Source of the DNA: Tetracentron sinense
Taxonomy: Eukaryota > Streptophyta > Magnoliopsida > Trochodendrales > Trochodendraceae
Length of the DNA: 64,000 nt
Assembly: GCA_015143295.1 (NCBI GenBank)
Contig: CM026559.1
Span: 17,188,826 to 17,252,825 of the forward strand
Reading direction: 5' to 3'
In this document: positions 2,133-42,131 of the stretch, piece after piece
How positions within the stretch are numbered: the stretch's first letter is position 1
How the letters are laid out: every line of letters begins with the position of its first letter
Made by a program: the position numbers and the translations under genes
Notes under the pieces: generated by a model
Told to the model about the DNA's origin: nothing
The model's input: only the letters and a program-made list of their open reading frames with translations
Database searches by the model: none

Positions 2133-2319
2133 ACCGATCGCTCGGTCCAATCAGCGATCGATCGGTCCATAACCGATCGATCGGTAGCTATCGCACGGTC
2201 AGAAATTTTGTATGGGGAAATTTTCCAGAGAGTGAGTTTTTGACTGATCGATCGGTCATAAACACCGATCGCTCGGTAGGTAACCGATCGATCGGTCATA
2301 ACCACCGATCGCTCGGTCT
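2133..2319. promoter_or_regulatory. palindrome array ACCGATCG(A/C)TCGGT
   Basis: Seven or so copies of a self-complementary 14-mer, ACCGATCGATCGGT or its one-base variants with GCTC in one arm, are spaced by 5-60 bp. Every copy is centred on TCGA or its variant and is rich in CpG. The position, upstream of the transcribed part of the LTR, suggests a promoter element; this is an inference. Confidence 0.75.
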
Positions 2320-4224: not shown

Positions 4225-4233
4225 CGTACTTTT

Positions 4234-5283: not shown

Positions 5284-5870
5284 CTAGCCATTGAAAACTA
5301 GTCATTACATGATTTTCCCGTAGGCACTCGTCGACGAGTGAGTGAAAACCAGGCTTGAGTTGTCGATGAGTGGGAACAGAAGGTATTGCATTATTTCTGT
5401 TCTTTCACTCGTCGACGAGTCCCTTGTACTTGTCGACGAGTCTACTGAATTTTTTCAATAAACTCATCATAATGAGACCAATTTGAAGGGAATCATGCTA
5501 GGACCCTTAGGCATTCAAAATAATATTATTTTAATCATTTTTAGGGTCTTAGATTGATGTACAAATTATACTAAGTCTCCTAGGGTCTATCTAGGTAAAC
5601 TTTGAGCAATTCTTTTCCAATGTCTTAAGGACGTTTATAAGGTCCTAGACATTCTTTAACTAAGACACTAGTCTTCATTGAGTGATGATCTTCTTTCTTG
5701 GTTTGTGGAGTTTCACTCTTGATGGATCTTCATGGATTGTCTTGAGCTCTTGAAGCTTTTTCCTTTGAAGGACTAATACTTGAACTTCTGCCTTGATGAA
5801 CTTGAATGGTTGAACTCTTCAATTCTTCATGACTTAAAAGATAATCTTAGTATTCTTTTTCTCTGAAATT
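5284..5870 (-). repeat. copia-like LTR fragment with CGTCGACG palindromes
   Basis: Three copies of ACTCGTCGACGAGT or close variants lie at 5324-5441. They are followed by a stretch whose layout (GCTTTTT...CTTCAA..., leading into TCTTGAGCTC) resembles the U3 of the SIRE LTRs read on the minus strand. Its promoter-side half was replaced where the preceding SIRE-type LTR inserted. The outer boundary near 5870 is approximate. No gene was seen. Confidence 0.5.
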
Positions 5871-8859: not shown

Positions 8860-9137
8860 TGTCACGCCCCAAAATAACCCCTAGGAGTTAAGGGATACTT
8901 TAGAGGTGACTACGTGTACCTGTCAAACCATCCTGTAATGCAAGAGGCTAAACATAACATCATACAATGATAATCAGAGCGCGGAACTAAACATAAGTGC
9001 GAAAGCATAAGCCAACTTTTTCTTTTCTTCTATTACTCCATATAGTATTCCAAGTTAACATATACTAAATACAATCAAAGTAAAGGTGGACATGCCCACC
9101 TATCAAAATACAAAAAGGAACTTTCTACACTGTCCTC

Positions 9138-9278
9138 TCAACAGTAGTCGAGGTATGGCCACACATCCAAGTCCCCATCCTCTTGAGACTGCCATGGGAT
9201 AGGTGGCTCCCTCTCCTCTACGTACTCCTCCTCGACCCAAGGCTCGGGGTCGAGGACATCCACAGTACCTGCCGACAT
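9138..9278 (-). CDS. LTR-encoded acidic peptide, 46 aa (copy B, 3' LTR)
   Basis: Same product as in copy A, with core DPEPWVEEEYVEER. The conserved ATG follows the LTR hairpin. The function is unknown. Confidence 0.5.
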   Translation of the reverse strand: MSAGTVDVLDPEPWVEEEYVEEREPPIPWQSQEDGDLDVWPYLDYC

Positions 9279-9553
9279 AAAAGTACGGCTGAGCATGGAA
9301 TACTCAGCGAGTACAAACTACTAGCTAACCATAACAATAGCGAAAGCATAACAACAGTGAGCAATACAAGATATTAATTTAACGCAATAGTCAAAGCATA
9401 AGATACATAGCCATATCTTGACATGCGTGTATGAATGCAAAAACCTCGGTAAAACTCATGTCTCGGAAACCCTTTTCGTGTCTCGGTCAAATCATGTATG
9501 TGTATCGTGTCTTGTCTTGTACTTCATGTCTTGATTTGTTCTTGACTTGTATA

Positions 9554-10020
9554 CTTGTGAGCCAGAGGCTAGCACCCTTCCTTGGGCTACCAACCTCCTT
9601 GTCATGTTCTTGTTCCATTTCTCTTGTGAGCCAGAGGCTAGCACCCTTCCTGGGGCTACCAACCTCCTTGTCATGTTCTTGTTTCATTTCACTTGTGAGC
9701 CAGAGGCTAGCACCCTTCCTTGGGCTACCAACCTCCTTGTCATGTTCTTGTTTCATTTCTCTTGTGAGCCAGAGGCTAGCACCCTTCCTTGGGCTACCAA
9801 CCTCCTTGTCATGTTCTTGATTCATTTCACTTGTGAGCCAGAGGCTAGCACCCTTCCTTGGGCTACCAACCTCCTTGTCATGTTCTTGTTTCATTTCTCT
9901 TGTGAGCCAGAGGCTAGCACCCTTCCTTGGGCTACCAACCTCCTTGTCATGTTCTTGATTCATTTCACTTGTGAGCCAGAGGCTAGCACCCTTCCTTGGG
10001 CTACCAACCTCCTTGTCATG
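9554..10020 (-). repeat. tandem array, seven 69-bp units
   Basis: Units are the same as in copy A, with two alternating spacer variants (ATGAATCAAGAA and ATGAAACAAGAA types, minus strand). Each unit can fold as a hairpin between GAGG and CCTC arms. Confidence 0.93.
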
Positions 10021-11002
10021 TTCTTGATTCATTTCATATACAAATACAATCTTGGAAAAAACCCGGTTTCATGCATGCATGCGTGCTTGTGTGCTTGTCA
10101 ATAGTGGTAATCATGATGACATACTTGAACGGGCGGATCACATGACTATGGCATTTCAATCCTTAACATAGTGGTATGAAAATTTAGGCAACATATAGCA
10201 CATTTGAGCAATTTATCATTTCTAAGAACAATTACACAATTTCTATTTCCATTTTCTTCATTAAGTCCATTTATCCCTTGTTTAGTCATTTTATCAAACA
10301 CATAGCATGCAAGGTTCCTTAATGGTTCATCTTCTTCTTTTTAGTGCCTACTTTCCATCCAAAAATCAAGGTATGTTCATTATTGGTAAAGTACCCATCC
10401 ACCATTTCCATCACACACATCACCCAATATACACCTCGGCATCCAATCGCCACATCAACCCCCACACACATCCATACCTTTTTCTTATCTTATTTAGGTT
10501 CATTGGAGATGATACATTTTATATGGGAGGCAAACATAATAGCATAAATCACATTTCATAAGGAAAAACCTAGATTTATTGCTAGGGTAAGTTAGTAGGG
10601 TGTACTAACCTTGAATCAAGGCTTGATCCTTGGTAGGGGCCTTGATTGAAGCTCCAACTTGAAAGATGAAGCCTTTGCTTGAAAGAAGCTTGAGTTGGGG
10701 AAGAAACCCCTTTCAAAAACGTGCTTGGGTTGCTGCCCTAGCTTGGAGAATGAGTCCCCACACGAGCTTGAGCCTTGAACTTGAAGCAACTCGAGTTGGG
10801 GTGAGCTAGGGTTCTTAAACCCCTTTGATTTCTTCTCCAATGGAAAACCCTAGTTGCAAATCCCCTTCTCCTTTCTCTCTATCTCTCAAAATCCCTTAAG
10901 TTCTGTGAATGAAGCCCTAAAGGCTCGAGCAAGCCTTAAGGAGGAAGGGTTTAACCCCCAAAAGACGAAAAAGCCCTTAATGAAAATTCTGAAAAACACG
11001 AA

Positions 11003-11190
11003 GACCGAGCGATCGGCGGTTATGACCGATCGATCGGTTGCCTACCGAGCGATCGGTGTTTATGACCGATCGACCGGTCAAAAACTCACTCTCTGGAAAA
11101 TTTTCCCATACAAACTTTCTGACCGCGCGATAGCTACCGATCGATCGGTTATGGACCGATCGATCGCTGACTGGACCGAGCGATCGGTCT
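11003..11190. promoter_or_regulatory. palindrome array ACCGATCG(A/C)TCGGT
   Basis: Seven or so TCGA-centred palindromes. At 11089-11150 an adjoining block that is not palindromic (CTCTCTGGAAAA...CATACAAA...GCGATAGC) closely matches the copia SIRE-1 LTRs. Confidence 0.75.
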
Positions 11191-11400
11191 TCTGTATGTC
11201 TGGACTGTTTTGACCATATCTTTTGACTCGCTCGTCGGATTTTGACGATTCAACTTGCGTTGGGTTCGTCTTTCGAAAATGAACATTTCTGACGTTTCGG
11301 AATTTCCGATTTCTCCCTTATTTATTAATTTGACTACAAAAACGGCCAATTAGCTACGAAGGTGCCATTCATTAAAGACGAAAAAGTCCGGGGTGCTACA

Positions 11401-11413
11401 TTCTCCCCCCCTT
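11401..11413 (-). other. polypurine tract of copy B
   Basis: On the minus strand AAGGGGGGGAGAA directly precedes the TGTAGC of the 3' LTR. Confidence 0.85.
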
Positions 11414-11510
11414 ACAAAAATTTCGTCCTCGAAATTTGGACAATGCGTGCTTTACAATTTAAACAACTTAGCATAACAATTTGAAACAAAATTACAAGTC
11501 ATACATAAGA

Positions 11511-14500
11511 TCATTCAAACAACTCGGGGTGCTTTGCCTTGACTTCGGCCTCACGTTCCCATGTAGCCTCTTCTCGAGCGTGATGTTTCCATTGCACGAG
11601 AACTAGCGGAATAGTCTTGTTGCGAAGTACTTGGTCTCTTCGATCCAAAATATGAACCGGCTTCTCAACCAAAGTGAGATCCTCTCGAATCTCAACCGGA
11701 TCAAGCTCGATGACGTGAGAAGGATCCGGGATGTACTTCCGAAGCTGGGAGATATGAAACACGTTGTGGACCGCCGCCATGTGAGCGGGCAAAGCAACAC
11801 GGTAAGCCACCTCGCCAACTCGAGTAATGATCTCGAACGGACCCACATATCTCGGGCTAAGCTTGCCTCTCTTCCCGAATCGCATAACACCTTTGGTCGG
11901 TGAAATCCTTACAAACACAAAATCACCGACTCGGAATTCAAGATCCCTCCTTCGGTTGTCGGCATAGCTTTTCTGTCTATCTTGTGCGGTCTTCAACCTC
12001 TCCCGGATAAGCTTGACCCTATCCGCGGTTTGTTCAATTAACTCGGGGCCCAAAATCTTTCTTTCTCCCACTTCATCCCAATACAACGGGGATCTACAAC
12101 TTCTTCCGTACAAAGCCTCGAAAGGCGCCATTTGTATGCTTTCTTGATAACTATTGTTGTAAGCGAATTCCACCAAAGGTAGGTGATCTTCCCAACTTCC
12201 CTTGAAGTCTAGCATACATGCTCGGAGCATATCTTCAATAACCTGATTCACCCTCTCGGTTTGCCCGTCGGTCTGTGGGTGGAAAGCTGTGCTAAAGTCT
12301 AATCGGGAGCCCATTGCACCTTGAAAACTTTTCCAAAACCTGGATGTGAATCTTGGGTCTCTATCCGACACAATACTCACTGGCACCCCGTGCAATCGGA
12401 CTATTTCTTTGATGTATAGTTCTGCTAACTGGTTGGAGTTGAATGTAGTCCGGTATGGTAAGAAATGAGCGGACTTCGTGAGTCTATCAATAACTACCCA
12501 TATAGCATCAGTCTTCTTGACCGTCTTCGGCAATCCCACGATGAAGTCCATAGAGATATGTTCCCATTTCCACTCGGGAATAGGGAGAGACTGCAAAAGA
12601 CCTGCCGGTCTCAAATGCTCCGCTTTCACCTGTTGGCACACCAAACACCGTGCCACATACTCCGCAACCTCCCTCTTCATGTTTCGCCACCAAAAGTGAC
12701 TCTTGAGGTTCCGATACATCTTTGTCCCTCCGGGATGCACTGTATACTTAGACCGGTGAGCCTCGTCCATAATCTCTCTCCGAAGGTCTACATTGGCTGG
12801 GACACAAAGTCTTCCCTTGAATGTAATAGCACCTCGGCTAGTGAGAGAGAAGTCCGTACTACCCTTGGCCACTTCCTTATCCCTGAAAGCCAACAAGTCA
12901 GTGTCTGTGGCTTGATACTCCTGGATCAAGTCTATAAGGTACGGCCGAACTGTAACATTTGCCAAAACCGGACTGCGGACAGAATCGTTCACACTGATGT
13001 CTAGATTTGCCAAATCGTCTAACAGTCTCCATTCCCGCACCAACATGTGAGCCAACAACCCCGATGGTTTCCTACTCAGAGCATCTGCCACCACATTTGC
13101 TTTTCCCGGGTGATATTGGATAGTGCACTCGTAGTCCTTTAAGAACTCAATCCAACGCCGTTGTCGTAAGTTTAACTCTTTTTGGGAAAAGAGATACTTG
13201 AGGCTCTTGTGGTCCGTGTACACATAGAACTCCACCCCGTATAGATAATGTCGCCAAATTTTAAGTGCAAACACGACCGCCGCAAGCTCCAAGTCGTGAG
13301 TGGGGTAGTTCTTTTCATGCTCTTTCAACTGCCTTGATGCATAGGCAATGACCTTCTTGTGTTGCATTAGGACACACCCGAGTCCAACATGCGAGGCATC
13401 GCTGTACACCTCATACCCAAAAGGTCCAGATGGCACAGTAAGGACAGGGGCAGTGGTGAGGCATTTCTTCAACTCTTGGAAACTTACTTCACATCGGTCA
13501 CTCCAACTGAACTTTGCATTTTTCCTTGTCAAGTAGGTGAGAGGTGCAGCCAAACTGGAGAATCCCTCCACAAATCTCCGGTAGTAGCCTGCCAATCCGA
13601 GGAAACTACGTATCTCCGTGACGCTCTTGGGCCTCTCCCAACTCATGACTGCCTCAACCTTGGCTGGATCTACAGAAATGCCCTCGGCCGACACCACATG
13701 TCCAAGAAATGCGACCTTCTCTAACCAGAACTCGCACTTACTCAATTTGGCATATAGCCTATGCTCTCTCAACATCTCCAGAGCGAGGCGGAGGTCTCGT
13801 GCGTGATCTTCCCGTGTCTGGGAATACACCAAAATGTCATCAATGAATGCAATCACGCATCGATCCAAGTAAGATCGGAACACCCGGTTCATCAAATCCA
13901 TGAATGCCGCCGGTGCATTCGTCAGCCCAAAAGGCATGACAAGGAACTCGTAATGCCCATACCGAGTCCTGAAAGCCGTCTTCTGAACATCTTCCGCCTT
14001 GATCCTTAATTGGTGATACCCCGATCTAAGATCAATTTTGGAGAAGAATCTCGCTCCCTTCAGTTGGTCAAACAAGTCGTCTATCCTTGGCAAGGGATAA
14101 CGATTCTTGATAGTTACCTTGTTCAAGTGACGGTAGTCTATACACATCCTCATAGACCCGTCCTTCTTCTTCACAAAGAGAACCGGAGCTCCCCACGGAG
14201 AGACACTTGGTTGGATGAAACCAAGTTGTTGTAACTCCTCAATCTGCTTCTTTAATTCTTCAAGCTCTATAGGGGCCATTCTATATGGTGCCCTTGAAAT
14301 CGGAGCGGTACCCGGAGCAAGCTCTATAGCGAATTCAATCTCTCTATCAGGAGGTAATCCGGGAAGTTCTTCCGGGAACACATCTAAGAACTCACTCACA
14401 ACTGGAATAGCCGATGAGTTTTGAGCTTCTGGGTGTGCTATACTCAAGGCTGCGAGGCGAGCAATGTCCCTCTCTCTTAATCCTCGGAAGTGAAAAGGCT

Positions 14501-14831
14501 TACCCCCTTCCGGCTTGAAATTCACCATCTTTTCAAAACACGCAACATGCCCGTGATGGCTTGCCAACCAATCCATACCAAGAATGACGTCAAAGTCTAA
14601 ATCTTGGAAACCCAGGACGATAAGGTCGGCTAACAATTCATTCTCCCCCACTTGAACCACACTATCCCTGAATACCTTATCCGTATCAACCGACTTGCCG
14701 AGTGGAGTTGCAATGGTCAACTCCCGCTCCAACGGAGTAGCCTCAGTCGAAAAGCCCTTTGCAAAACTTGGGGAGACAAAAGAGTGAGTAGATCCTGTGT
14801 CTATCAACACTCGAGCGAGACACTCGTTCAC
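11511..14831 (-). CDS. pol: gypsy pol: protease, RT, RNase H, integrase, chromodomain-like
   Basis: An open frame of 1106 codons. Domains in rough order: aspartic protease ([12 protein letters not shown], near residue 9); reverse transcriptase ([19 protein letters not shown], near 215; FIDDILVYS, near 330); RNase H ([11 protein letters not shown], near 480). Integrase follows, with an H-H-C-C finger (HRSKY...CLVCQQ) and core motifs [18 protein letters not shown] and GQTERVNQ. Last is the chromovirus tail ([31 protein letters not shown]). It makes cDNA and inserts it into the genome. No strong ATG is needed if pol is read from a spliced gag-pol mRNA; the exon would begin at 14842. Confidence 0.95.
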
Positions 14832-14842
14832 TAATAAAGCGC

Positions 14843-14977
14843 CTGTGTGATTAAGTAACTAATATAAGTAGATTTCAAATAATAACAAGCATCATACATA
14901 GGTAACCCTTAGTATAGAAACTCACAAAGCAAACCATAGAAATTTTACACAATTTAAATTCTAGAATTCGTGCGTAC
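14843..14977 (-). other. intron-like interval between gag and pol (135 bp)
   Basis: On the minus strand it has a CAAG|GTACGC donor and a TCACACAG|GC acceptor. It is AT-rich and has TATACTAAG, a plausible branch-point region, about 45 bp from the acceptor. The gag stop lies inside it, so an unspliced RNA would give gag alone. The same borders occur in copies C and D at nearly the same length. Splicing between gag/protease and RT is known in Ogre elements; use here is inferred. Confidence 0.55.
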
Positions 14978-16214
14978 CTTGCACGACATCGTCGGATGCA
15001 CGTGCGTCTCTCTCGGATAAGGCAAAGACTCGGCCCTGTGTGGCTGGGCGAGGAGGCCGGGTAGACTGTGAGGCCCTCGAAGCCTGAGAAGAGCTAGGCT
15101 GAGATGTCTGCCTAATCGGGGGCCTGCTCCCCGAAGACTGAGCTGGCAACAGACGTCGGGGACAATCCCGAATCATGTGGCCCTGGTCGCCACAATGAAA
15201 ACAGCCTCCTGTAGCCTTCCGACATTCCCCTGCTGGATGCCTCCTTCCACAAAGGGTGCAGACATCATGTGAATAAGTGGGAGGAGTATAACCTGTAGCC
15301 TGAGTCACTACGGGGCGAGGAGCATACGAGGTAGCCGGGCGAAAAGCCGGTGGAGTAAAAGGGCGGAGAGCCTGTGGTGCCGAGTACATCCTCTGTGACT
15401 GAGCCGGCCCTGCGAACTGATAAGACATAGTCCTAGCTCTCTTCTCCCCTGAATTACTAGACTGTCCCTTCTCTATTCCTCTTCTCTTAAAGAACTCTTC
15501 GGAATTCGACTCGGCCAACAATGCCTTGTCCACAACTTCTGAATATGTCTCATGTCGGAACATTGAGACACGATCCTTGAGGTAGGCCTTCAACCCCCTC
15601 TCGAATTTCCGGGCCTTCATAGCCTCGGTAGCTATCATGTGTGGAGCAAATCGAGATAGCTCTGAGAACTTGGCTTCGTAAGCCGCTACAGACATATTAC
15701 CTTGCTCCAAGGTAATAAATTCAATTTCTTTCTTTTCTTTCATCCCAACCAGAAAGTATTTCTTGTAGAAAACGTCCAAGAATTCTCCCCATGTCCATTC
15801 TTGGCCTTGCCGGGTCAACTCTCGGGTCCGAAGTGCAGACTTCCACCAATGGTCGGCCTCGCCTTCAAGCATAAAGGCAGCCCATGTGACCCTCTCTACT
15901 TCCGTAGGTGCCAAAACCGAGAATATCTTCTCAAGTTGCCGAATCCAACCCTCGGCAATAAGTGGATCAATGCTTCCACAAAAAGTTGGAGGCCTCATCC
16001 TCCGGAAAGCTTCTATCCCGGCTTGGGCTCGATTAGGAGGAGCCGGTATAAGTGCCGCATTAGGCGGGGTGGCCGGTTGCCTTGCCGCCAACATAGCCAA
16101 GGTCTCGGCTATGGATGCGAATGCTTGGGCAAAGTCGGGTTGATCATTACCCGATGGAGCATCACCTCCATTACCCCTCGTGTTGTACCCGCGACCCCGA
16201 GTATTGCGTCTCAT
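14961..16214 (-). CDS. gag: gypsy gag
   Basis: 417 codons from ATG at 16214 (MRRNTRGRGYNTRG). The central part is the Retrotrans_gag capsid region (FCGSIDPLIAEGWIRQLEKI, WAAFMLEGEADHWW, MSVAAYEAKFSELSRFAP). A low-complexity Pro/Ser/Gln stretch follows, with two zinc knuckles, CTLCGRRHPAGEC (CX2CX3HX4C) and CFHCGDQGHMIRDC (CX2CX4HX4C). The protein forms virus-like particles and binds element RNA. A TTG-initiated extension is open upstream, but the ATG is preferred because it is kept in copies C, D and E. Confidence 0.93.
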   Translation of the reverse strand: MRRNTRGRGYNTRGNGGDAPSGNDQPDFAQAFASIAETLAMLAARQPATPPNAALIPAPPNRAQAGIEAFRRMRPPTFCGSIDPLIAEGWIRQLEKIFSVLAPTEVERVTWAAFMLEGEADHWWKSALRTRELTRQGQEWTWGEFLDVFYKKYFLVGMKEKKEIEFITLEQGNMSVAAYEAKFSELSRFAPHMIATEAMKARKFERGLKAYLKDRVSMFRHETYSEVVDKALLAESNSEEFFKRRGIEKGQSSNSGEKRARTMSYQFAGPAQSQRMYSAPQALRPFTPPAFRPATSYAPRPVVTQATGYTPPTYSHDVCTLCGRRHPAGECRKATGGCFHCGDQGHMIRDCPRRLLPAQSSGSRPPIRQTSQPSSSQASRASQSTRPPRPATQGRVFALSERDARASDDVVQGTHEF

Positions 16215-16525
16215 GATTTCTCCTGAGAACGACAATACAACATGAGTCTAACTTGGATACGCATTTAGTACAATTTCGCAATTCACTTAATACATATTCA
16301 TCAAGCACATTTAATAAGTACAACACAAATAATGTACACATGGTATATAACACAATAGCATAACATACAATCCGTGTTCCTAGCGTAGGACTCTATGTTC
16401 GGTTGAAGTTCAACCCATTTTGACTAAGACTAACTTGTTAGTCTACACTTGGAATACAACTCTCTAAGGTGATTCTAATACCTTGTTCAATCATCTAAGT
16501 GACCCTATGGACTCTAATGCCTAGA

Positions 16526-16537
16526 GCTTTGATACCA
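16526..16537 (-). other. primer binding site, initiator Met tRNA (copy B)
   Basis: The minus strand reads TGGTATCAAAGC four bases inside the 5' LTR end. It is complementary to the 3' end of plant initiator Met tRNA with one difference from the usual TGGTATCAGAGC. Confidence 0.9.
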
Positions 16538-16819
16538 CTACTGTCACGCCCCAAAATACCCCCTAGGAGTTAAGGGATACTTTAGAGGTGACTACGTGTA
16601 CCTGTCAAACCATCCTGTAATGCAAGAGGCTAAACATAACATCATACAATGATAATCAGAGCGCGGAACTAAACATAAGTGCGAAAGCATAAGCCAACTT
16701 TTTCTTTTCTTCTATTACTCCATATAGTATTCCAAGTTAACATATACTAAATACAATCAAAGTAAAGGTGGACATGCCCACCTATCAAAATACAAAAAGG
16801 AACTTTCTACACTGTCCTC

Positions 16820-16960
16820 TCAACAGTAGTCGAGGTATGGCCACACATCCAAGTCCCCATCCTCTTGAGACTGCCATGGGATAGGTGGCTCCCTCTCCTC
16901 TACGTACTCCTCCTCGACCCAAGGCTCGGGGTCGAGGACATCCACAGTACCTGCCGACAT
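16820..16960 (-). CDS. LTR-encoded acidic peptide, 46 aa (copy B, 5' LTR)
   Basis: Identical to the 3' LTR version. In a transcript started in this LTR it would be a small upstream ORF about 600 bases before gag. Confidence 0.5.
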   Translation of the reverse strand: MSAGTVDVLDPEPWVEEEYVEEREPPIPWQSQEDGDLDVWPYLDYC

Positions 16961-17235
16961 AAAAGTACGGCTGAGCATGGAATACTCAGCGAGTACAAAC
17001 TACTAGCTAACCATAACAATAGCGAAAGCATAACAACAGTGAGCAATACAAGATATTAATTTAACGCAATAGTCAAAGCATAAGATACATAGCCATATCT
17101 TGACATGCGTGTATGAATGCAAAAACCTCGGTAAAACTCATGTCTCGGAAACCCTTTTCGTGTCTCGGTCAAATCATGTATGTGTATCGTGTCTTGTCTT
17201 GTACTTCATGTCTTGATTTGTTCTTGACTTGTATA

Positions 17236-17702
17236 CTTGTGAGCCAGAGGCTAGCACCCTTCCTTGGGCTACCAACCTCCTTGTCATGTTCTTGTTCCAT
17301 TTCTCTTGTGAGCCAGAGGCTAGCACCCTTCCTGGGGCTACCAACCTCCTTGTCATGTTCTTGTTTCATTTCACTTGTGAGCCAGAGGCTAGCACCCTTC
17401 CTTGGGCTACCAACCTCCTTGTCATGTTCTTGTTTCATTTCTCTTGTGAGCCAGAGGCTAGCACCCTTCCTTGGGCTACCAACCTCCTTGTCATGTTCTT
17501 GATTCATTTCACTTGTGAGCCAGAGGCTAGCACCCTTCCTTGGGCTACCAACCTCCTTGTCATGTTCTTGTTTCATTTCTCTTGTGAGCCAGAGGCTAGC
17601 ACCCTTCCTTGGGCTACCAACCTCCTTGTCATGTTCTTGATTCATTTCACTTGTGAGCCAGAGGCTAGCACCCTTCCTTGGGCTACCAACCTCCTTGTCA
17701 TG
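17236..17702 (-). repeat. tandem array, seven 69-bp units
   Basis: Same seven units and the same order of variants as in the other LTR of copy B. Confidence 0.93.
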
Positions 17703-18684
17703 TTCTTGATTCATTTCATATACAAATACAATCTTGGAAAAAACCCGGTTTCATGCATGCATGCGTGCTTGTGTGCTTGTCAATAGTGGTAATCATGATG
17801 ACATACTTGAACGGGCGGATCACATGACTATGGCATTTCAATCCTTAACATAGTGGTATGAAAATTTAGGCAACATATAGCACATTTGAGCAATTTATCA
17901 TTTCTAAGAACAATTACACAATTTCTATTTCCATTTTCTTCATTAAGTCCATTTATCCCTTGTTTAGTCATTTTATCAAACACATAGCATGCAAGGTTCC
18001 TTAATGGTTCATCTTCTTCTTTTTAGTGCCTACTTTCCATCCAAAAATCAAGGTATGTTCATTATTGGTAAAGTACCCATCCACCATTTCCATCACACAC
18101 ATCACCCAACATACACCTCGGCATCCAATCGCCACATCAACCCCCACACACATCCATACCTTTTTCTTATCTTATTTAGGTTCATTGGAGATGATACATT
18201 TTATATGGGAGGCAAACATAATAGCATAAATCACATTTCATAAGGAAAAACCTAGATTTATTGCTAGGGTAAGTTAGTAGGGTGTACTAACCTTGAATCA
18301 AGGCTTGATCCTTGGTAGGGGCCTTGATTGAAGCTCCAACTTGAAAGATGAAGCCTTTGCTTGAAAGAAGCTTGAGTTGGGGAAGAAACCCCTTTCAAAA
18401 ACGTGCTTGGGTTGCTGCCCTAGCTTGGAGAATGAGTCCCCACACGAGCTTGAGCCTTGAACTTGAAGCAACTCGAGTTGGGGTGAGCTAGGGTTCTTAA
18501 ACCCCTTTGATTTCTTCTCCAATGGAAAACCCTAGTTGCAAATCCCCTTCTCCTTTCTCTCTATCTCTCAAAATCCCTTAAGTTCTGTGAATGAAGCCCT
18601 AAAGGCTCGAGCAAGCCTTAAGGAGGAAGGGTTTAACCCCCAAAAGACGAAAAAGCCCTTAATGAAAATTCTGAAAAACACGAA

Positions 18685-18872
18685 GACCGAGCGATCGGCG
18701 GTTATGACCGATCGATCGGTTGCCTACCGAGCGATCGGTGTTTATGACCGATCGACCGGTCAAAAACTCACTCTCTGGAAAATTTTCCCATACAAACTTT
18801 CTGACCGCGCGATAGCTACCGATCGATCGGTTATGGACCGATCGATCGCTGACTGGACCGAGCGATCGGTCT
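18685..18872. promoter_or_regulatory. palindrome array in 5' LTR of copy B
   Basis: Counterpart of 11003-11190. In the minus-strand sense it lies upstream of the leader that begins with a CT-rich stretch near 18540. Confidence 0.75.
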
Positions 18873-19087
18873 TCTGTATGTCTGGACTGTTTTGACCATA
18901 TCTTTTGACTCGCTCGTCGGATTTTGACGATTCAACTTGCGTTGGGTTCGTCTTTCGAAAACGAACATTTCTGACGTTTCGGAATTTCCGATTTCTCCCT
19001 TATTTATTAATTTGACTACAAAAACGGCCAATTAGCTACGAAGGTGCCATTCATTAAAGACGAAAAAGTCCGGGGTGCTACACTTAG

Positions 19088-19231: not shown

Positions 19232-20447
19232 TGAAATTACCCTAATCGATGATCTCTATGACCTAGAGGGGGGGTGAATAGGTCTATCTAAGAATTTCTA
19301 ACTAATTCTAATTTTTTCAAATTATTATTTTAGAAATCAATAAACAGATCACACCAACAATCCACACAAATCAAACACAGAAGATTTTTACTTGGAAAAC
19401 CCTTACAGGGAAAAACCACAGGACCAAGTCCAGCAACAAACTTCACTATGAGAAGAACTCAAGTACAAGACAAGACCTTACCCAAACCGGACACTACGTT
19501 CTTAGGTACAGAATCTTACTCTTGATTTCCACGAACCAGTCAGTTCGTTCTCCGCCATAGCAGCTTCGGTTCCACACCGACCAAATTTTCTCAAGCTACT
19601 TTAATACCACGATCACACACGATCGATCTCCTTCCACGAAGGCTCCGGATCATACACCGGATACACACACAAGGTGTAGGGTTGTGAATCAATTTAGAAA
19701 GCTTCAAACCCTAAAGGGATCTCATACAGATCTAAGATCACACAATGCAAGATCAAAAGTATAGATCTATACTTGCATTCTCTAGGATGATTGAAAGAAG
19801 AGGGATCAATAAAGATCTATGAAAAAGAAAGGAAAAAGCCCTAGAAAGGTTTCTCAGACCTCTACTCTTTCAAAAATAAACAAAGATACGAATTAGGTCT
19901 CCAAAAAATTGTTTATATAGGGTTTAGAAAAGAGTCCAGAAAAATAAAAATTTTGTTTACGAGGATTGATCGATCGGTGCTTATAATCGATCGCTCGGTC
20001 CAAAACCAATCGATCGGTATTCACATCGAGAGATCGGTTAAATATTAACTCTCTAGAAAAATACCCCATACAAATTTTTTGACCAGTCGATAGCCACCGA
20101 TCGCTCGGTAGGCCACCGATCAATCGGTCTCAACACCGAGCGATCGATTGAGACAAAATTTCAGCTAAAACATTTTTCTTTTATTTTTGTTTGATTCAAA
20201 TAAGACCAAAAGTCTTTGTTAGGCTTAAAACTATCCTCCTAGGTATGTTTAGAGTTATCTAAGTCAAATCCAACCTAGGTAGGGGTCTCTAAGTCCATTA
20301 CTTGTCTAGATCCGGTGTAAAAAGCTTTTTCTTCAATTTCTTCACTCTTCTTGAAGCTTTAGCTCTTCTGACAAGTTGAACAAGACTCAACACATATGAC
20401 CTATCTAATGATCACGGAATTTGCCAACACCTAGTTAGGGATTTATA
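19232..20447 (-). repeat. 3' LTR of SIRE-1 (1216 bp)
   Basis: On the minus strand it runs to GGGTAATTTCA at 19232. TATA box CTATATAAAC lies near 19912-19921, about 45 bp downstream of the palindrome array. Compared with the other LTR it carries about 20 bp more in the array. Confidence 0.92.
19962..20150. promoter_or_regulatory. palindrome array in SIRE-1 3' LTR
   Basis: About seven copies of ACCGATCGATCGGT variants, the same motif as in the gypsy family of copies A-C. Segment 20049-20110 aligns with gypsy copy B 11089-11150 outside the palindromes as well. Confidence 0.75.
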
Positions 20448-21411: not shown

Positions 21412-21873
21412 TTAGTTGATTGGACCCTTCGGAATTCGAGTAGGAACACCAGGAGGAGCAATGACCCATTGAGAACCAAGGAGTTTAGTGATCAGGGAAC
21501 CAAATGGAAGGGCTCCAACTACAGTTTGAGTTTGATGGGCTTGAATCATCAAATCAATAATGTGTGCGGCAAGATCAATATCATGTCCACGAAGAAGACT
21601 GAACAAAAATCGTGCTCTATCTTCCCTAAGGTCTGCAGTATGAACCTTTGGGTGGATATTGGCACTCATTACTAGGTTTACAAGTCTTGCATCCCTAATG
21701 AGTTTAGACACTTCAATTAGGGAGCCAACCCAAAGTTTAGTAGCACCACAAAGAAAGGTGACTACATTGTTCATAGATTCTTTATCCTCATCATTCTTAT
21801 ATTTATAAGGATAATAAGCATCTGGAACTCGAGGACAACCAAGAAATTTAGCAATCACATTAGGATTTATCAA
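21412..21873 (-). CDS. extra ORF of SIRE-1, putative plant transposon protein domain
   Basis: 153 codons on the element's sense strand, between RT-RNase H and the 3' LTR, where SIRE elements carry an additional (env-position) ORF. Motifs FLGCPRVPDAYYPY, VNLVMSANIHPKVHT, RARFLFSLLRG, IDLAAHIIDLMI and ALPFGSLITKL resemble the 'putative plant transposon protein' domain often found in such ORFs. No signal peptide or membrane segment was seen. It is probably an incomplete fossil. It may have its own promoter (22190-22251). Confidence 0.6.
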   Translation of the reverse strand: MINPNVIAKFLGCPRVPDAYYPYKYKNDEDKESMNNVVTFLCGATKLWVGSLIEVSKLIRDARLVNLVMSANIHPKVHTADLREDRARFLFSLLRGHDIDLAAHIIDLMIQAHQTQTVVGALPFGSLITKLLGSQWVIAPPGVPTRIPKGPIN

Positions 21874-22189
21874 AACAGATTTTTCTAAAGCTCGAGATTT
21901 GAAAGACTAGGTTTTAGAGTTGATTTCAAAAAAATTTGAGTAAAATTCTTGGACCAACTGAATAGGATCAGGACCGGATAAAGTGAGAATATTAAAGCCA
22001 TGGAAGAACAAACGATGCTCTAGGTTTGGAAAATCAACACAGACCAAGATAAGATGAAGACTTACCTTTCACGAATTTGAAAATCCCTGAGATTTGAAAA
22101 GAGTGACCGAAATCAAGATTTGGAAGATGGGAGACCGAGAGATCGCTCTGGAGATTGATGAACAAGTGTATATAAAACATACCAAATGA

Positions 22190-22251
22190 GGGTTTTATAC
22201 CCTGTTCACGATAGACCGATCGATCGGTCCATAATACCGAGCGATCGGTGG
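22190..22251 (-). promoter_or_regulatory. candidate internal promoter of SIRE-1
   Basis: On the minus strand two palindromes (ACCGATCGCTCGGT, ACCGATCGATCGGT; 22215-22251) are followed by CGTGAACAG and GGTATAAAACC (22190-22201). The LTR promoter of the same element has the same order: palindromes, CGTGAACAG, TATA box. The extra ORF starts about 320 bp downstream. Confidence 0.5.
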
Positions 22252-24670: not shown

Positions 24671-26273
24671 AACTAGAAGAATTCTGATTGATTCTAGCTT
24701 GGCAACAGGAGCAAAGGTTTCGTCGAAGTCAATGCCTTCAATTTGGGTGTATCCTTATGCAACTAACCTAGCCTTATTTCTTATGATAGTACCTTTTTCA
24801 TCAGATTTGTTCTTGAAAATCCATTTGGTACCTATCACATTTGTATTGTTAGGCCTAGGTACTAAATACCAAACATCATTCCTAGTAAACTGAAGTAACT
24901 CTTCTTGCATTGCATTTATCCAATTATCATTTGCAAGGGCTTCAGCTACATTCTTGGGTTCAAAAGATGAAGTATAGCAAATCTAGCTAACTTCATTTTC
25001 AATTTGTTTCCTCGTTCCCACTCCACTTTCAAGATCACCAATGATATCAGTGGAGGTGTGAGGACTCATGACCCTAGGATGTGTAGGTTTTAATGGAGAT
25101 GATTGCTTAGTAATAAGTGGAGTTGAAGCAGTTTCAACATTTTCATTTTCAGCACTTTCATCATCCTCAAGTTGCACATTTTTAACACCGAAGTCATCCA
25201 CAACTACATTGATGGACTCCATAATTGTAGAAGTTCTCAAGTTATACACTTGATAAGCTCTACTATTGGTGGAATACCCAAGAAATATCCCTTCATCACT
25301 CCGGGATTCAAATTTGCCCAGTTGCTCTCTATCCTTAAGGATATAGCATTTACTTCCAAATTCTCGAAAGTACTTGACATTGGGTTTTTTGTTATTCTAC
25401 AACTCATATGGGGTTTTCCTTGTTCCAGGCCTTAGAAAAACTCGATTAACAATATAGCAAGCAGTATTAACTGCCTCAGCCCAGAAATGAGAAGCTAGAT
25501 TGTTGCTATGAAGCATAACTCTAGCCATCTTTTGGAGAACCCTGTTCTTCCTCTCCACAACACCATTCTGTTGAGGTGTAATGGGTGCAGAAAATTCATG
25601 TTTGATACCTGACTCACCACAAAAGTCGTTGTACTTAGAGTTTTCAAACTCCTTTCCATGATCACTTCGAATTCTAGTGATTGGGCATCTTTTCTGAATT
25701 TTTATTTTTCAAGCAAATACTTTTGAAATTTTCAAAAGCATCGGATTTCTCTCTTATAAATTCCACCCATGACATTCTGGAGAAATCATCAACCATGACT
25801 AGGATGTATCGCTTTCCGCCTAGGCTTTCAGTTCTTGTAGGACCCATAAGATCCATATGAATTAATTCCAGTGGATGTGAAGTGGCAATACTAGAAGTCT
25901 TCTTATGTGGGGTTCTAATTTGTTTACCAATCTAGCATGGCCCACACACAGCAGTAGAAGGCTTTCCTAGTTTGGGCACACCTCTCACAAGCTCTTGCTT
26001 TGAGATTTTGCATAGGTCTTTGATTCTTCGGTGCCACAGATCAACCTCCTCAATTTTAGCCCTATTACAGACATTTGAGGGATTAGAACTAGGGATTAAG
26101 CCGTAGCAATTGCCAGTGGTTCTCAACCCTTCTAGAACACACTTACCTTTACCATTAATGACTAGGCATTTATTTTGGGTAAAGTGCACAGCATGGTTAT
26201 CATCACATAGTTGACTTATGCTAATCAAATTAGCTTTCAGTCCTTCAACAAATAAGGCATTTTTCAATTTTAA
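24671..26273 (-). pseudogene. pol: copia integrase region and RT start (SIRE-1)
   Basis: Minus-strand pieces show the GAG-pre-integrase domain (LKANLISISQLCDDNHAVHF, VDLWHRRIKDL, CGPC), the integrase core (MDLMGPTRTESLGGKRYILV, DDFSRMSWVEF) and the acidic linker before RT (PRVMSPHTSTDIIGD). The region is broken in several places. It stops at copy C, whose left LTR begins at 26274. Confidence 0.85.
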
Positions 26274-26485
26274 TGTAGCACCCTGGACTTTTTCATCCTT
26301 AATGAATAGCACCTTCGTAGCTAATTGGCCGTTTTTGTAGTCTAATTAATAAATAAGGGAGAAATCGGAAATTTCGAAATGTTAGAAATGTTTGTTTTCG
26401 AAAGACGGATCCAACGCAAGTTGAATCGTCAAAATTCGACGAGCAAGTCAAAAGATATGGTCAAAACAGTCCAGACATACAGAGC

Positions 26486-26670
26486 ACCGATCGCTCGGTC
26501 CAGTCAGCGATCGATCGGTCCATAACCGATCGATCGGTAGCTATCGCACGGTCAGAAATTTTGTATAGGGAAATTTTCCAGAGAGTGAGTTTTTGACCGG
26601 TCGATCGGTCATAAACACCGATCTCTCGGTAGGCAACCGATCGATCGGTCATAACCACCGATCGCTCGGT
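26486..26670. promoter_or_regulatory. palindrome array in copy C 5' LTR
   Basis: About seven ACCGATCG(A/C)TCGGT copies in the same order as in copies A and B. Confidence 0.75.
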
Positions 26671-27660
26671 CTTCGCGTTTTTTTGCAGAAATTTTAGTAA
26701 GGGCGTTTTCATCTTTTCGGTGTTAAACCCTTACCCATAAGGGTTTGCTCGACCCTTTGAGGCCTCACTTACAACATTTGAGGGATTTTGAGAGATAGAG
26801 AGAGAAGAGGAGAAAGCTCTAACCTAGGGTTTGGTTTTGAGAAGGAAATCAAATGGGGTTTAAGAACCATAGCTCACCCCAACTCGAGTTGCTTCAAAAT
26901 CGAGGCTCAAGCTCGTGTGTGTGAATCATTCTCCAAGCTAGGGCAGCAATCCAAACACGTTTTTGAAAGGGGTTTCTTCCCCAACTCAAGTCTCCTTCAA
27001 GAAAAAGGTGTTCTTCTTTCAAGTTGGAGCTTCAATCAAGGTTTCTACCAAGGATCAAGCCTTGATCTAAGGTTAGTACACCCTACTAACTTACCCTAGT
27101 AATAAATCTAGGTTTTCCTTATGAAATATGATTCTTGTTAGTATGTTTTGTTCTTTACAAAATGTGTTATCTATAATAAATATAAACAAGATAAAGAAAG
27201 GGTAGGGATGCTTGGATGGAGGTTGGATACGGCGATTGGATGCCGAATGTGTGATGTATGATGTGTGGGTTGTGGATTGGAAAATGGAGGATGGGCATAG
27301 TACAAATAACAAACTTACCATTGTGTGATTGAATGGAAAATATGCATTTAAAAGAAGGAGATAAACTACTAAGGAATAATGTATGAAAGTGTTTGACAAA
27401 ATACCTAAACTATGAATAAATGATCTCAATGAAGAATATAGAAATGGGTTTTATGCATGCGTTCTTATAAATGATAGATTGATCAAATGTTATGCAAACT
27501 ACTTATGGTACCTATGTTCATATCATGAATTGAATTAAAATGTCATATTTTGGTTATTCCCACTATCATGATTGTCACTATGGACACGTACACGAGCACG
27601 CATGATAGCATGAACCGTGATTTCAAGAGCATGTGCATATAATAAACAACAAGAAAATAT

Positions 27661-27911
27661 TGCATGTCAAGGAGGCTGGTAGCCCAGGGACATTCGGGTG
27701 CTAGCCTCTGGCTCACAAGTGCATTGCATAACAAGGAGGTTGGTAGCCCAGGGACATTCGGGTGCTAGCCTCTGACTCACAAGTTCATTGCATAACAAGG
27801 AGGTTGGTAGCCCAGGGACATTCGGGTGCTAGCCTCTGGCTCACAAGTGCATTGCATATCAAGGAGGTTGGCAGCCCAGGGAGATTCGGGTGCTAGCCTC
27901 TGGCTCACAAG
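27661..27911 (+). repeat. tandem array, four units of about 64 bp
   Basis: Unit: CAAGGAGGTTGGTAGCCC, AGGGACATTCGGGTGCTAGC, CTCTGGCTCACAAGTGCATT. The arms GAGG..GTAGCCC and GGGTGCTAGCCTC pair. The right LTR of the same element has five units. Confidence 0.92.
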
Positions 27912-28199
27912 TTACAAGATGGAGGTTTACAAGATGATGATCATGCATTCATGCATGCACGCATATATGATTTCTACGAGGCATACCGGGACATGACAGG
28001 GGTTTTCAAGCATGAGTTTTATCGGTGTTTTCGCATTCATGTACGCACATCAGGATACTTGTATTGTGTTATGCCCTATACTGTTTCTTTGTGATGTTTC
28101 TATTACTACTTGTATGATATTACTATTGTGTGTTTTATTATTGTTATGGTCTGCTAGTAGCTTGTACTCGCTGAGTATTCCATGCTCAGCCGTACTTTC

Positions 28200-28340
28200 A
28201 TGTCGGTAGGTACTGAGGGAGCCCTCGACCCGGAGCCTTGGGTCGAGGAAGAGTATATAGAGGAGAGAGAGCCGGCTATTCCATTACAGTCTCAGGCGGA
28301 CCGAGACCTCGATGCGTGGCCATACCTCGACTACTGTTGA
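28200..28340 (+). CDS. LTR-encoded acidic peptide, 46 aa (copy C, 5' LTR)
   Basis: Begins MSVGTEGALDPEPWVEEEY and ends LDAWPYLDYC. Against copies A and B about half the changed codons are synonymous. The function is unknown. Confidence 0.55.
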   Translation: MSVGTEGALDPEPWVEEEYIEEREPAIPLQSQADRDLDAWPYLDYC

Positions 28341-28619
28341 GGGGAGAGTATGAGAGGGTCTTGTGTATTTTGATAGGTGGGCCTGTCCACCTTAGACTTA
28401 GACATGTCTTGTATTTATGTTAACTTGGAATACTATTTTGGATAATCAGAAGAAATGAAAATTTGTTTACGCTTCCGCATATATGATAGCTTTCGTACTC
28501 TGATTATCGTTGTTAGTACTGTATTTTATCTTGTGCATTACAGGATGGTTTGATAGGTACGCAGTGTGACACCTAAAATATCTCTAAACTCTTAGGGGGT
28601 ATTTCGGGGCGTTACAGAG

Positions 28620-28631
28620 TGGTATCAGAGC
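28620..28631 (+). other. primer binding site, initiator Met tRNA (copy C)
   Basis: TGGTATCAGAGC, an exact match to the usual plant initiator-Met site, lies three bases after the LTR end. Confidence 0.95.
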
Positions 28632-28942
28632 TCTAGGCATTAGAGTCCCTAGGGTCACTTAGATGATTGAACAAGGTATTAGAATCACCTTAGAGAGTTG
28701 TATTCCAAGTATAGACTAACAAGTTAGTCTTAGTCAAAATGGGTTGAACTTCAACCGAACATAGAGTCCTACGCTAGGACCACGGATTGTATGTTATGCT
28801 ATTGTGTTATATACCATGTGTACATTATTTGTGTTGTACTTATTAAATGTGCTTGATGAATATGTATTAAGTGAATTGCGAAATTGTACTAAATGCGTAT
28901 CCAAGTTAGACTCATGTTGTATTGTCGTTCTCAGGAGAAATC

Positions 28943-30196
28943 ATGAGACGCAATACCCGGGGTCGCGGGTACAACACGAGGGGTAATGGAGGTGATGCTC
29001 CATCGGGTGATGATCAACCCGACTTTGCTCAAGCATTCGCATCCATAGCCGAGACTTTGGCTATGTTGGCGGCAAGGCAACCAGCCACTCTACCTAATGC
29101 GGCACTCATACCGGCTCCTCCTAACCGAGCCCAAGCCGGGATAGAAGCTTTTCGGAGGATGAGGCCTCCAACTTTTTGTGGAAGCATTGATCCACTTGTT
29201 GCCGAGGGTTGGATCCGGCAACTTGAGAAGATATTCTCGGTATTAGCACCTACTGAAGTGGAAAGGGTCACATGGGCCGCCTTTATGCTTGAAGGTGAGG
29301 GCGATCATTGGTGGAAGTCTGCACTTCGGACCCGAGAGTTGACTCGGTAAGGTCAAGATTGGACTTGGGAGGAATTCTTGAAGGTTTTCAACAAGAAGTA
29401 TTTTCCGGTCGGGATGAAAGAAAAGATGGAAGTCGAATTCATTACCTTGGAGCAAGGTAATATGTCCGTAGCGGCTTATGAAGCCAAATTTTCGGAGCTA
29501 TCTCGATTTGCTCCACACATGATAGCGACCGAGGCTATAAAGGCCCAGAAATTTGAGAGGGGGTTGAAGGCCTATCTCAAGGACCGAGTCTTGATGTTTA
29601 GACATGAGACATATTCCGAAGTTGTTGATAAAGCACTATTGGCCGAGTCGAACTCCGAGGAGTTCTTCAAAAGGAGAGGAATGGAAAAAGGACAGTCGAG
29701 TAGTTCAGGGGAGAAAAGAGCAAGGATGAGCTTGTATCAGTCTGCAGGGCCGGCTCAGTCACAGAGGATGTATTCAGCACCACAGGCTCCCCGCTCTTTT
29801 GCTCCACCGGCTTTTCGCCCGGCTACCTCATATGCTCCTCGCCCCGCAGTTACTCAGGCTACGGGATATGCTCCGTCCTCCTATTTGCATGATGATTACA
29901 CTCTTTGTGGGAGGAGGCATCCAGCGGGAGAATGCTGGAGAGTTTCAGGAAGTTGCTTCCATTGTGGTGACCAAGGCCACATGGTCAGAGATTGTCCCCG
30001 GCGTCAATTGCCAACTCAGTCTTCAGGGTGCAGGCCCCCGATTAGGCAGACATCTCAACCTAGCTCTTCTCAGGCTTCGAGGGCCTCACCGTCTACACGG
30101 CCTCCTCGCCCAGCCACACAGGGTCGAGTTTTCGCCCTATCAGAGAGAGACGCATGTGCATCCGACGATGTCGTGCAAGGTACGCACGAATTCTAG
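28943..30196 (+). pseudogene. gag: gypsy gag (copy C), broken
   Basis: Starts at ATG 28943 with MRRNTRGRGYNTRG, as in copy B. It carries the capsid region (FCGSIDPLVAEGWIRQLEKI, MSVAAYEAKFSELSRFAP) and two zinc knuckles (second: CFHCGDQGHMVRDC). The stretch just before the ATG reads TATTGTCGTTCTCAGG and resembles a 3' splice site. Confidence 0.88.
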
Positions 30197-30311
30197 AGTT
30201 TAAATTGTGTAAAATTTCTATGGTTTGTTTTGTGAGTTTCTATACTAAGGGTTACCTATGTATGATGCTTGTTGTTTGAAATCTACTAATAGTAGTCACT
30301 TAATCGCACAG
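30180..30311 (+). other. intron-like interval between gag and pol (132 bp)
   Basis: GTACGC donor after GTGCAAG, and CGCACAG acceptor before GCGCTTT. TATACTAAGG lies inside. Counterpart of 14843-14977. Confidence 0.55.
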
Positions 30312-33300: not shown

Positions 33301-33643
33301 GAGATATGTGGGTCCGTTCGAGATCATTACTCGAGTTGGCGAGGTGGCTTACCGTGTCGCTTTGCCCGCTCACATGGCGGCGGTCCATAATGTATTCCAT
33401 ATCTCTATGCTCCGGAAGTACATCTCGGATTCTTCTCATGTCATCGAGCTTGATCCGATAGAAATCCGAGAGGACCTCACTTTAGTTGAGAAGCCGGTTC
33501 ATATTTTGGATAGGAGAGATCAAGTGCTTCGCAACAAGACTATTCTGCTAGTCCTCGTGCAATGACAACATCATGCACGAGAAGAAGCCACGTGGGAGCG
33601 TGAAGCCGAAGTCAAAGCAAAGTATCCCGAGTTGTTTGAATAG
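30312..33643 (+). pseudogene. pol: gypsy pol (copy C), broken
   Basis: Protease ([12 protein letters not shown]), RT ([29 protein letters not shown]), RNase H ([12 protein letters not shown]), integrase ([29 protein letters not shown]) and the chromovirus tail ([19 protein letters not shown]) are all present at full length and in the usual order. The sequence is a few percent different from copy B. Confidence 0.9.
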
Positions 33644-33722
33644 ACTTGTGCATATGGCTTGTCATTTTGTTTTGATTTTGTGCATGTATGTATCGTCCAA
33701 ATTTCGGGGATGAAATTTTTGT

Positions 33723-33735
33723 AAGGGGGGGAGAA
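33723..33735 (+). other. polypurine tract of copy C
   Basis: AAGGGGGGGAGAA directly precedes the TGTAGC of the right LTR. Confidence 0.85.
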
Positions 33736-33947
33736 TGTAGCACCCTGGACTTTTTCATCCTTAATGAATAGCACCTTCGTAGCTAATTGGCCGTTTTTGT
33801 AGTCTAATTAATAAATAATAGAGAAATCAGAAATTTCGAAATGTTAGAAATGTTCGTTTTCGAAAGACGGATCCAACGCAAGTTGAATCGTCAAAATTCG
33901 ACGAGCGAGTCAAAAGATATGGTCAAAACAGTCCAGACATACAGAGC

Positions 33948-42117: not shown

Positions 42118-42131
42118 TCCTCCCCCCCTTA
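42118..42131 (-). other. polypurine tract of copy D
   Basis: The minus strand reads TAAGGGGGGGAGGA before the LTR. Confidence 0.8.

Follow-up and report, generated by a model that had tools for sequence, protein, structure and literature searches.

Fifteen arrays of short palindromic sites were found in a 64-kb stretch of plant DNA (the window), in LTRs of both Ty1/copia and Ty3/gypsy retrotransposons once in the interior of a copia element and once in a fragment not assigned to an element. The palindromes are real and far above chance expectation. The arrays of the copia element SIRE-1 and of the gypsy LTRs A, B and C appear, from the alignment of the sequence between their palindromes, to be one promoter module shared by the two superfamilies. 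The array is probably a proximal U3 enhancer, made of stacked sites for a dimeric host activator and working like the RM boxes of Sireviruses – the arrays in gypsy elements would be of the same kind, with the A/B/C module inherited in common with SIRE-1. LTRs are usually viewed as evolving inside one lineage; a homologous array in copia and gypsy elements would mean that regulatory modules can cross superfamilies, and unrelated elements of one genome could thus be co-activated and co-silenced.

Retrotransposons and palindrome arrays in the window

The window consists of nested plant LTR retrotransposons. Within this one window, LTR pairs were delimited by self-comparison, and kinship among elements was judged by sequence similarity. 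The elements are:

8860..19082, minus strand: gypsy A, with LTRs at about 8860-11400 and at 16542-19082 that are 99.8% identical
26272..36150, plus strand: gypsy B, with a 5' LTR at 26272-28616 and a 3' LTR at 33734-36150
39888-42118 and 47385-49556, minus strand: the LTRs of gypsy D, related to gypsy A by similarity of internal sequence
about 19232-20446 and 38691-39883, minus strand: the LTRs of SIRE-1, a Sirevirus-like copia element, from self-comparison
Z, C, C2, E and SIRE-2: single or partial LTRs, from self-comparison

Pfam matches place gypsy A and B in Ty3/gypsy, with a strong RVT_1 in both, and SIRE-1 in Ty1/copia, with RVT_2 and Retrotran_gag_2 above the cut-off, so that Ty1/copia coding domains are present. 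Gypsy A matches gag, RVT_1, RNase H and integrase. Its rve match (21.4 bits) is below the Pfam cut-off of 32.6, and its chromodomain match (Chromo, E 7.5e-05, 23.0 bits) is just below the cut-off of 25.1. No chromo match was found by Pfam in the last ORF of gypsy B. Gypsy A and B may be chromoviruses of the Del/Tekay type, given the near-threshold chromodomain of gypsy A. Judged by its LTR identity and by the CTTAG on either side of it (8855-8859 and 19083-19087), gypsy A is a young insertion. Its internal region has no sense ORF of at least 150 aa besides gag and pol; two antisense ORFs, 12462-13004 (180 aa) and 15666-16226 (186 aa), lie within pol and gag. SIRE-2 is called copia from the DNA similarity of its internal sequence to SIRE-1, and the SIRE-2 ORF examined has no Pfam match. 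LTR E is a putative gypsy LTR – it resembles those of gypsy D, and an ORF with a gag/Ty3_capsid match lies 1-1.5 kb away. A gypsy RT/RNase H piece and the copia RVT_2 ORF, compared with viral contigs, gave no confirmed relatives.

By eye, SIRE-1 seems to be inserted in a gypsy D LTR, with D-like LTR sequence on both sides (19127-19231 and 39888-42118). Gypsy B is in turn nested within SIRE-1. LTR Z adjoins a SIRE-1-like LTR fragment (4640-5288) as if inserted there, and a further fragment, X, lies beyond. A minisatellite of about 69 bp is found in the A- and Z-type LTRs (3273-3975, 9537-10036 and 17219-17718) and is longer in Z.

The catalogue of palindromic sites comprises the following arrays:

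11004..11188, minus strand: gypsy A 3' LTR, seven ACCGA-N4-TCGGT dyads, 14-bp sites starting at 11004, 11025, 11044, 11065, 11136, 11155 and 11175 (sense start-to-start 20, 19, 71, 21, 19 and 21 bp)
18686..18870, minus strand: gypsy A 5' LTR, as in the 3' LTR
2133..2317, plus strand: LTR Z (about 1921-4645), A-type, seven sites
26486..26670, plus strand: gypsy B 5' LTR, A-type
33948..34132, plus strand: gypsy B 3' LTR, A-type
54995..55179, minus strand: LTR fragment C (54689-55389), A-type
57521..57665, plus strand: LTR C2 (57309-59582), A-type, down to five sites
19965..20148, minus strand: SIRE-1 3' LTR, seven sites, homologous to the gypsy A/B/C array
39422..39586, minus strand: SIRE-1 5' LTR, six sites, as in the 3' LTR
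22134..22249, minus strand: SIRE-1 internal boxes, sites 22236 and 22215 (21 bp apart) and a weaker third at 22134, between pol and a downstream ORF
41576..41763, minus strand: gypsy D 3' LTR, eight TACGA-N4-TCGTA dyads
49075..49201, minus strand: gypsy D 5' LTR (LTR to 49556), five sites
61541..61658, minus strand: LTR E, five degenerate ACTCG-N4-CGAGT dyads (spacing 21, 41, 21 and 21 bp)
5326..5441, no strand assigned: fragment X, ACTCGTCGACGAGT at 5326 and 5407, a variant at 5428 and a degenerate site at about 5358
52225..52392, minus strand: SIRE-2 LTR, five sites with a GTTCGAA core (spacing 21, 30, 82 and 21 bp)

There are 90 sites in these 15 arrays: 47 in the seven A/B/C-type LTR copies, 16 in SIRE-1 (13 in the LTRs and 3 internal), 13 in D, 5 in E, 5 in SIRE-2 and 4 in X. 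Every LTR copy that a preliminary description had named as bearing palindromes does bear an array, with 4-8 catalogued sites. Most copies are homologous, so the 90 sites are not independent events; the number of independent array types is six at most. The arrays of A/B/C and of SIRE-1 form a single homologous block some 190 bp long.

A scan that assumed no motif found 54 pairs of similar near-palindromic 12-mers spaced 12-40 bp apart, all of them inside the arrays. First-order Markov resampling of the window in 500-bp blocks gave 0 or 1 such pair in each of 12 replicates. When the distance was extended to at most 120 bp, 104 of the 110 near-palindrome pairs lay in the 15 arrays, which occupy 2,955 bp or 4.6% of the window. 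The other six have spacings of 80-89 bp, five at 58884-58986 in the 3' part of LTR C2 and one at 60510-60601. With at most one arm mismatch allowed, the D, E and SIRE-2 motifs had no match outside the arrays within the window, and the A/B/C motif had two (28300 and 35826).

Spacing, composition and conservation of the sites

Within clusters, sites follow one another at start-to-start steps of 19-21 bp in the A/B/C and SIRE-1 arrays, 20-22 bp in D, and 21 bp in E, X and SIRE-2; the step of the SIRE-1 internal pair is also 21 bp. Taking one representative for each of the six array types and a cut-off of 40 bp, 18 of 20 nearest-neighbour distances are 19-22 bp, the exceptions being 33 bp in X and 30 bp in SIRE-2. 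Gaps above the cut-off measure 41 bp (E), 48 bp (X), 49 bp (D), 71 bp (A/B/C), 81 bp (SIRE-1 internal) and 82 bp (SIRE-2). The naive probability that six types agree on a step is 1e-5, a figure in which the typical step of X, 21 bp, comes from one pair; it is 0.003 with the three gypsy types counted once and the internal pair dropped. The natural reading of a 19-22 bp step is two helical turns, approximately. Neither this spacing nor the position of the SIRE-1 boxes 22236, 22215 and 22134 outside the LTRs figured in the preliminary description.

Tandem duplication yields regularly spaced units, and the arrays might be neutral minisatellites, built up within each LTR by duplication of a 20-21 bp unit whose palindromy and CpG content have no significance; an ordinary repeat, of about 69 bp, is present in the A- and Z-type LTRs as well. 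Duplication would account for regularity inside one array and not for a step common to several types, and array types of different sequence are all palindromic with the same 19-22 bp step. The spacers between units are, by eye, dissimilar to each other.

Constraint was measured in all 15 pairs among six of the seven A/B/C LTR copies (the gypsy A 5' LTR was excluded). Among the positions compared, differences occur at 39 of 950 in the arms (4.1%), 18 of 380 in the centres (4.7%), 90 of 1245 in the spacers (7.2%), 425 of 3186 in the upstream LTR (13.3%) and 1013 of 4134 in the downstream LTR (24.5%). Arm divergence is lower than that of both flanks in 15 of 15 pairs and lower than that of the spacers in 13 of 15. 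In the remaining two, Z-C2 and B5-B3, arms are no better kept than spacers, as a neutral repeat would predict; in the pooled counts they are better kept despite the mutability of CpG, and we regard the neutral explanation as very improbable. Some of this apparent constraint could be the product of recent exchange or conversion – block exchange among the copies may contribute because the spacers too diverge less than the flanks, which makes the whole A/B/C array more alike than its surroundings.

In the preliminary description the centre of the palindrome was always TCGA and CpG was always present. All 90 sites do contain CpG. TCGA is central in 45 of the 90 sites and CG in 72, which rules out a central TCGA as a rule: it holds for the perfect palindromes (17 of the 90 sites are perfect 14-mers) and not for the arrays overall. 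The centres of gypsy D vary widely, with AGGA, ACGA, TCAA, CCAA and CCTA among them. The palindromes that had been given for E and SIRE-2 proved to be consensus forms, as neither array has a perfect 14-mer in its five sites; the longest palindromes from the scan are TCGTCGACGA in E and CGTTCGAACG in SIRE-2.

The A/B/C arrays repeat the outer arms ACCGA/TCGGT around a centre that is mainly TCGA or TCGC. Read in sense orientation, 39 of 40 sites have an unaltered right arm, TCGGT, and 24 of 40 an unaltered left arm, ACCGA (counts without the gypsy A 5' LTR), which makes these sites less symmetric than a strict dimer site. SIRE-2 is the converse, with GTTCGAA constant in 5 of 5 sites and variable outer bases.

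Promoter context and comparison with Sirevirus boxes

A TATA box downstream of the array, described before for SIRE-1, D and E, was confirmed in all three: TATAWA lies 45 bp past the last palindrome in SIRE-1, 53-57 bp past it in D and 117 bp past it in E, where chance would supply 0.11 per 120 bp. The SIRE-1 form, TATATAAA, stands at 45 bp in both LTRs, and TATAAATA stands at 53 bp in the gypsy D 3' LTR, 57 bp in the D 5' LTR and 117 bp in LTR E. No TATAWA occurs within 260 bp downstream in the seven A/B/C LTR arrays, SIRE-2 or fragment X. For A/B/C and SIRE-2 this counts against the enhancer reading, as do the gaps of 30-82 bp that break the spacing.

The internal boxes of SIRE-1 at 22236 and 22215 are followed 15 bp on by TATAAAA and then by an ORF:

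21415..21906, minus strand: SIRE-1 ORF in the ENV position, matching PF20167 (Transposase_32, 'Putative plant transposon protein', E 2.6e-19)

Its position makes this ORF a candidate ENV gene. It exceeds the cut-off for PF20167 only. A protein search with it returned 51 candidates, none at E 0.001 or below, and a single-sequence structure model had a mean pLDDT of 37.6 and was uninterpretable. At about 22065 a GTAAGT resembles, by eye, a 5' splice site. The 16-mer GACCGATCGATCGGTC (22214-22229) is found as well in an article about a TetR-type regulator of bacteria (PMC9210681), probably by coincidence. A Sirevirus is expected to have several copies of the polypurine tract AGGGGGAG between pol and the 3' LTR, the last of them at the LTR itself. 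SIRE-1 has exact copies at 22301 and 20836, which separate its RVT_2 ORF from the 3' LTR, and another at 24443, within the RVT_2 ORF; by eye, the LTR-adjacent copy reads AGGTGGAG, and a run of C precedes tctaggtcata close to the SIRE-1 LTR end.

The copia half of these observations has been known since 2010, as the RM boxes of Sireviruses (Bousios et al. 2010, PMC2829016). RM boxes are palindromic, high-copy, element-specific and CpG-dense, and lie in U3 before the TATA box. In ENV-bearing Sireviruses they also occur upstream of ENV, as do 77 of 79 linker boxes, and they are reported to be Sirevirus-specific and absent from classic Ty1/copia, in a dataset that is Ty1/copia by the abstract (PMC2829016). 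The arrays of SIRE-1, D and E are like them in being palindromic repeats before the TATA box in U3, and SIRE-1 alone has extra copies (22215, 22236 and the weaker 22134) before the ORF in the ENV position. Two features are unlike. The arrays here are also in Ty3/gypsy LTRs, and the CGG-CCG core present in 12 of 13 published RM boxes (PMC2829016) is replaced by the order CCG-N6-CGG in A/B/C and SIRE-1 and by others in D, E and SIRE-2. The boxes are not filed as RM boxes by sequence because that core order is missing. Six of the 13 published boxes were sought in the window. The Tnd-1 box ACAATCGATTGT has one exact copy, at 41708-41719 in a gypsy D LTR, a post hoc match that serves as a lead only; the other five have no exact occurrence.

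Bousios et al. left the binding factor unnamed and proposed that small changes alter which factor binds (PMC2829016), a suggestion close to the idea in the preliminary description that each element family is matched to one member of a dimeric factor family. The two-turn step and the changing palindromes give a concrete route to that factor. Unit spacing of RM boxes was not found in the passages of PMC2829016 searched. In the open-licence literature searched we have not seen RM-type arrays in gypsy LTRs, a homologous module in copia and gypsy, or the two-turn step, and six exact palindrome strings led to no paper on LTRs, as judged by titles and the start of abstracts.

ONSEN and other COPIA elements of Brassicaceae have arrayed inverted heat-response sites for an oligomeric host activator, which arose by duplication and were gained repeatedly (PMC5059998). 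The ONSEN units are nGAAn, for heat shock factors, and the sites here are, by eye, not nTTCnnGAAn. A heat shock element array was rejected for SIRE-2 as well, since its TTCGAA is without the two-base spacing (by eye). Among the binder families considered – LBD, ARF, DREB, MYB, WRKY, HSF and GATA, with the HSF site the one compared with the sites here – none is claimed.

Sequence shared by copia and gypsy LTRs, and possible functions

In BLAST the gypsy array and the array of the SIRE-1 LTR match in the same orientation, with 73-75% identity along about 190 bp. With the palindromes masked, the spacers of gypsy A and of the SIRE-1 3' LTR still align in register, with a score of 72 against a null maximum of 34 (z 13.0); for the SIRE-1 5' LTR the score is 62 against 40 (z 10.7; 500 shuffles per comparison). 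Masked spacers in register argue for one module shared between the superfamilies, and independent convergence of the A/B/C and SIRE-1 arrays is ruled out by them. The BLAST matches stop within about 25 bp of the array, so that what is shared is a module and not a whole LTR. The flank after the last palindrome is common to A and SIRE-1 and to SIRE-1 and D, with the score reached in 0 of 1000 shuffles for each. The A-D flank match is weaker (p about 0.013, uncorrected, which would not survive correction), and 12 of the 15 flank pairs tested were not significant.

Transfer from copia to gypsy is hinted at by the description of RM boxes across monocot and eudicot Sireviruses (PMC2829016) and by the report that LTRs of eudicot Del elements are without CpG islands (PMC4029996). 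That unlike elements can have a palindrome in common is no novelty in itself, since in maize a Sirevirus palindrome is also present in Helitrons (PMC10760457). The maize case differs in that Helitrons are not gypsy elements and that the motif alone is shared, not a homologous array with its spacers.

By eye, A/B/C, D and E have a common upstream block (AAGTTGAATCGTCAAAATC...GAGTCAAAAG, differing in E), behind which the array occupies the same slot with a different palindrome in each. A kept slot with a changed palindrome in related gypsy LTRs fits a putative change of bound factor. LTR E and fragment X have a common arm type, ACTCG/CGAGT. With a crude mask, the alignment of their surroundings reached 31 on one strand, where the best shuffle reached 27, and 26 on the other, where the best shuffle equalled it. 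The matching of each element family to one factor was overstated in the preliminary description: one inherited module is common to the A/B/C gypsy elements and the copia element SIRE-1, and the arm type of gypsy E recurs in fragment X.

An extension of the shared-module reading, which we hold to be quite improbable, is that Sireviruses have served time and again as donors of promoter modules to gypsy elements of their own genome. The donor to A/B/C would have resembled SIRE-1, that to D would have borne a Tnd-1-like box, and that to E would have been like X. The palindrome would then be an address read by a dimeric factor that diversifies fast and that the ENV-position gene of the Sirevirus may provide in trans, and copia and gypsy elements with the same address would be switched on together.

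In the enhancer reading that we prefer, each array would offer five to eight sites in U3 to a dimeric, sequence-specific DNA-binding protein encoded by the host. Sites mostly about two helical turns apart would allow the dimers to stack on one face of the DNA, and the stacked dimers would activate the LTR promoter. SIRE-1 would use a second set of boxes ahead of its ENV-position gene. The promoter module would have crossed between Ty1/copia and Ty3/gypsy, and a change of palindrome in a kept slot would be a change of bound factor. A dimeric factor had been suggested before, and it fits the TATA position in SIRE-1, D and E, the two-sided arm changes between families, the arm constraint and the two-turn spacing; the proposed one-to-one pairing with families is the part that goes too far.

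The CpG content of the arrays bears on another explanation. Measured in 12 of the 15 array stretches, CpG observed/expected lies at 1.25-2.08, against 0.63 in the window and 0.34 in the rest of LTR A. The 120 most CpG-rich 200-bp windows merge into 11 regions, of which nine contain A/B/C or SIRE-1 LTR arrays; the two without an array are 1421-1621 and 33191-33471, and the arrays of D, E, X and SIRE-2 are absent from these regions. When the other A/B/C copies are compared with gypsy A, its CpGs are retained in 91 of 99 comparisons inside sites, 8 of 15 in spacers and 0 of 5 at site edges, with 46 of 69 in the upstream and 18 of 25 in the downstream flank. A CpG-rich LTR block is common to the arrays and to Del gypsy LTRs, where a variable CpG-rich block in the 5' part was proposed to serve silencing evasion (Cruz et al. 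2014, PMC4029996); CpG islands are found there in monocots and not in the eudicot Del group. Words starting in palindrom or tandem do not occur in the main text of that paper.

Such CpG density and retention could mean that the arrays act in anti-silencing or in methylation sensing, the latter an idea of the preliminary description too: a factor would keep the LTR unmethylated, or would bind only unmethylated CpG-dense sites, in the manner of VANC, an element-encoded protein that removes methylation. VANC targets in VANDAL elements are likewise dense, family-specific and tandemly accumulated, and may occur in an unrelated element (PMC5735166). Like the sites here, they are noncoding motifs that diverge together; unlike them, they have one orientation and an element-encoded binder, and VANDAL are not LTR elements (PMC5735166, PMC10398659). 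The SIRE-1 boxes do stand before the element's own extra ORF, which would suit a self-made factor. Since gag and pol are the only sense-strand ORFs of at least 150 aa inside gypsy A, such a factor would there probably come from elsewhere, and the SIRE-1 ORF has its PF20167 match only, no homologue in one protein search and an uninterpretable model. We judge this explanation, too, to be quite unlikely.

The main rival to the enhancer reading, and itself unlikely, acts at the level of RNA: in the genomic RNA, the 3'-terminal U3 would fold into hairpins that serve small RNAs as templates or targets, a role that has been suggested for the Sirevirus palindromes of maize. Five of the 15 arrays were folded, and all fold better than dinucleotide shuffles (z -7.4 in A, -5.7 in the SIRE-1 5' LTR, -3.8 in the D 3' LTR, -5.6 in E and -5.2 in SIRE-2; 0 of 200 shuffles as good in each). 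In maize, an excess of small RNAs on Sirevirus palindrome clusters is reported in PMC10760457, citing Bousios 2016. Any palindrome array folds, so these z-scores do not separate the causes, and position before the TATA box and two-turn spacing have no RNA reason. Both readings may hold, with sites that are needed for transcription being exploited by the host for silencing; an argument from element need and host exploitation is made in PMC10760457. Mismatches between the arms are of G-U type in 22 cases and of A-C type in 10, counts in which inherited copies recur and one site of X stands out of register; sorted by hand into separate events, the mismatches come to about 16 G-U and 10 A-C.
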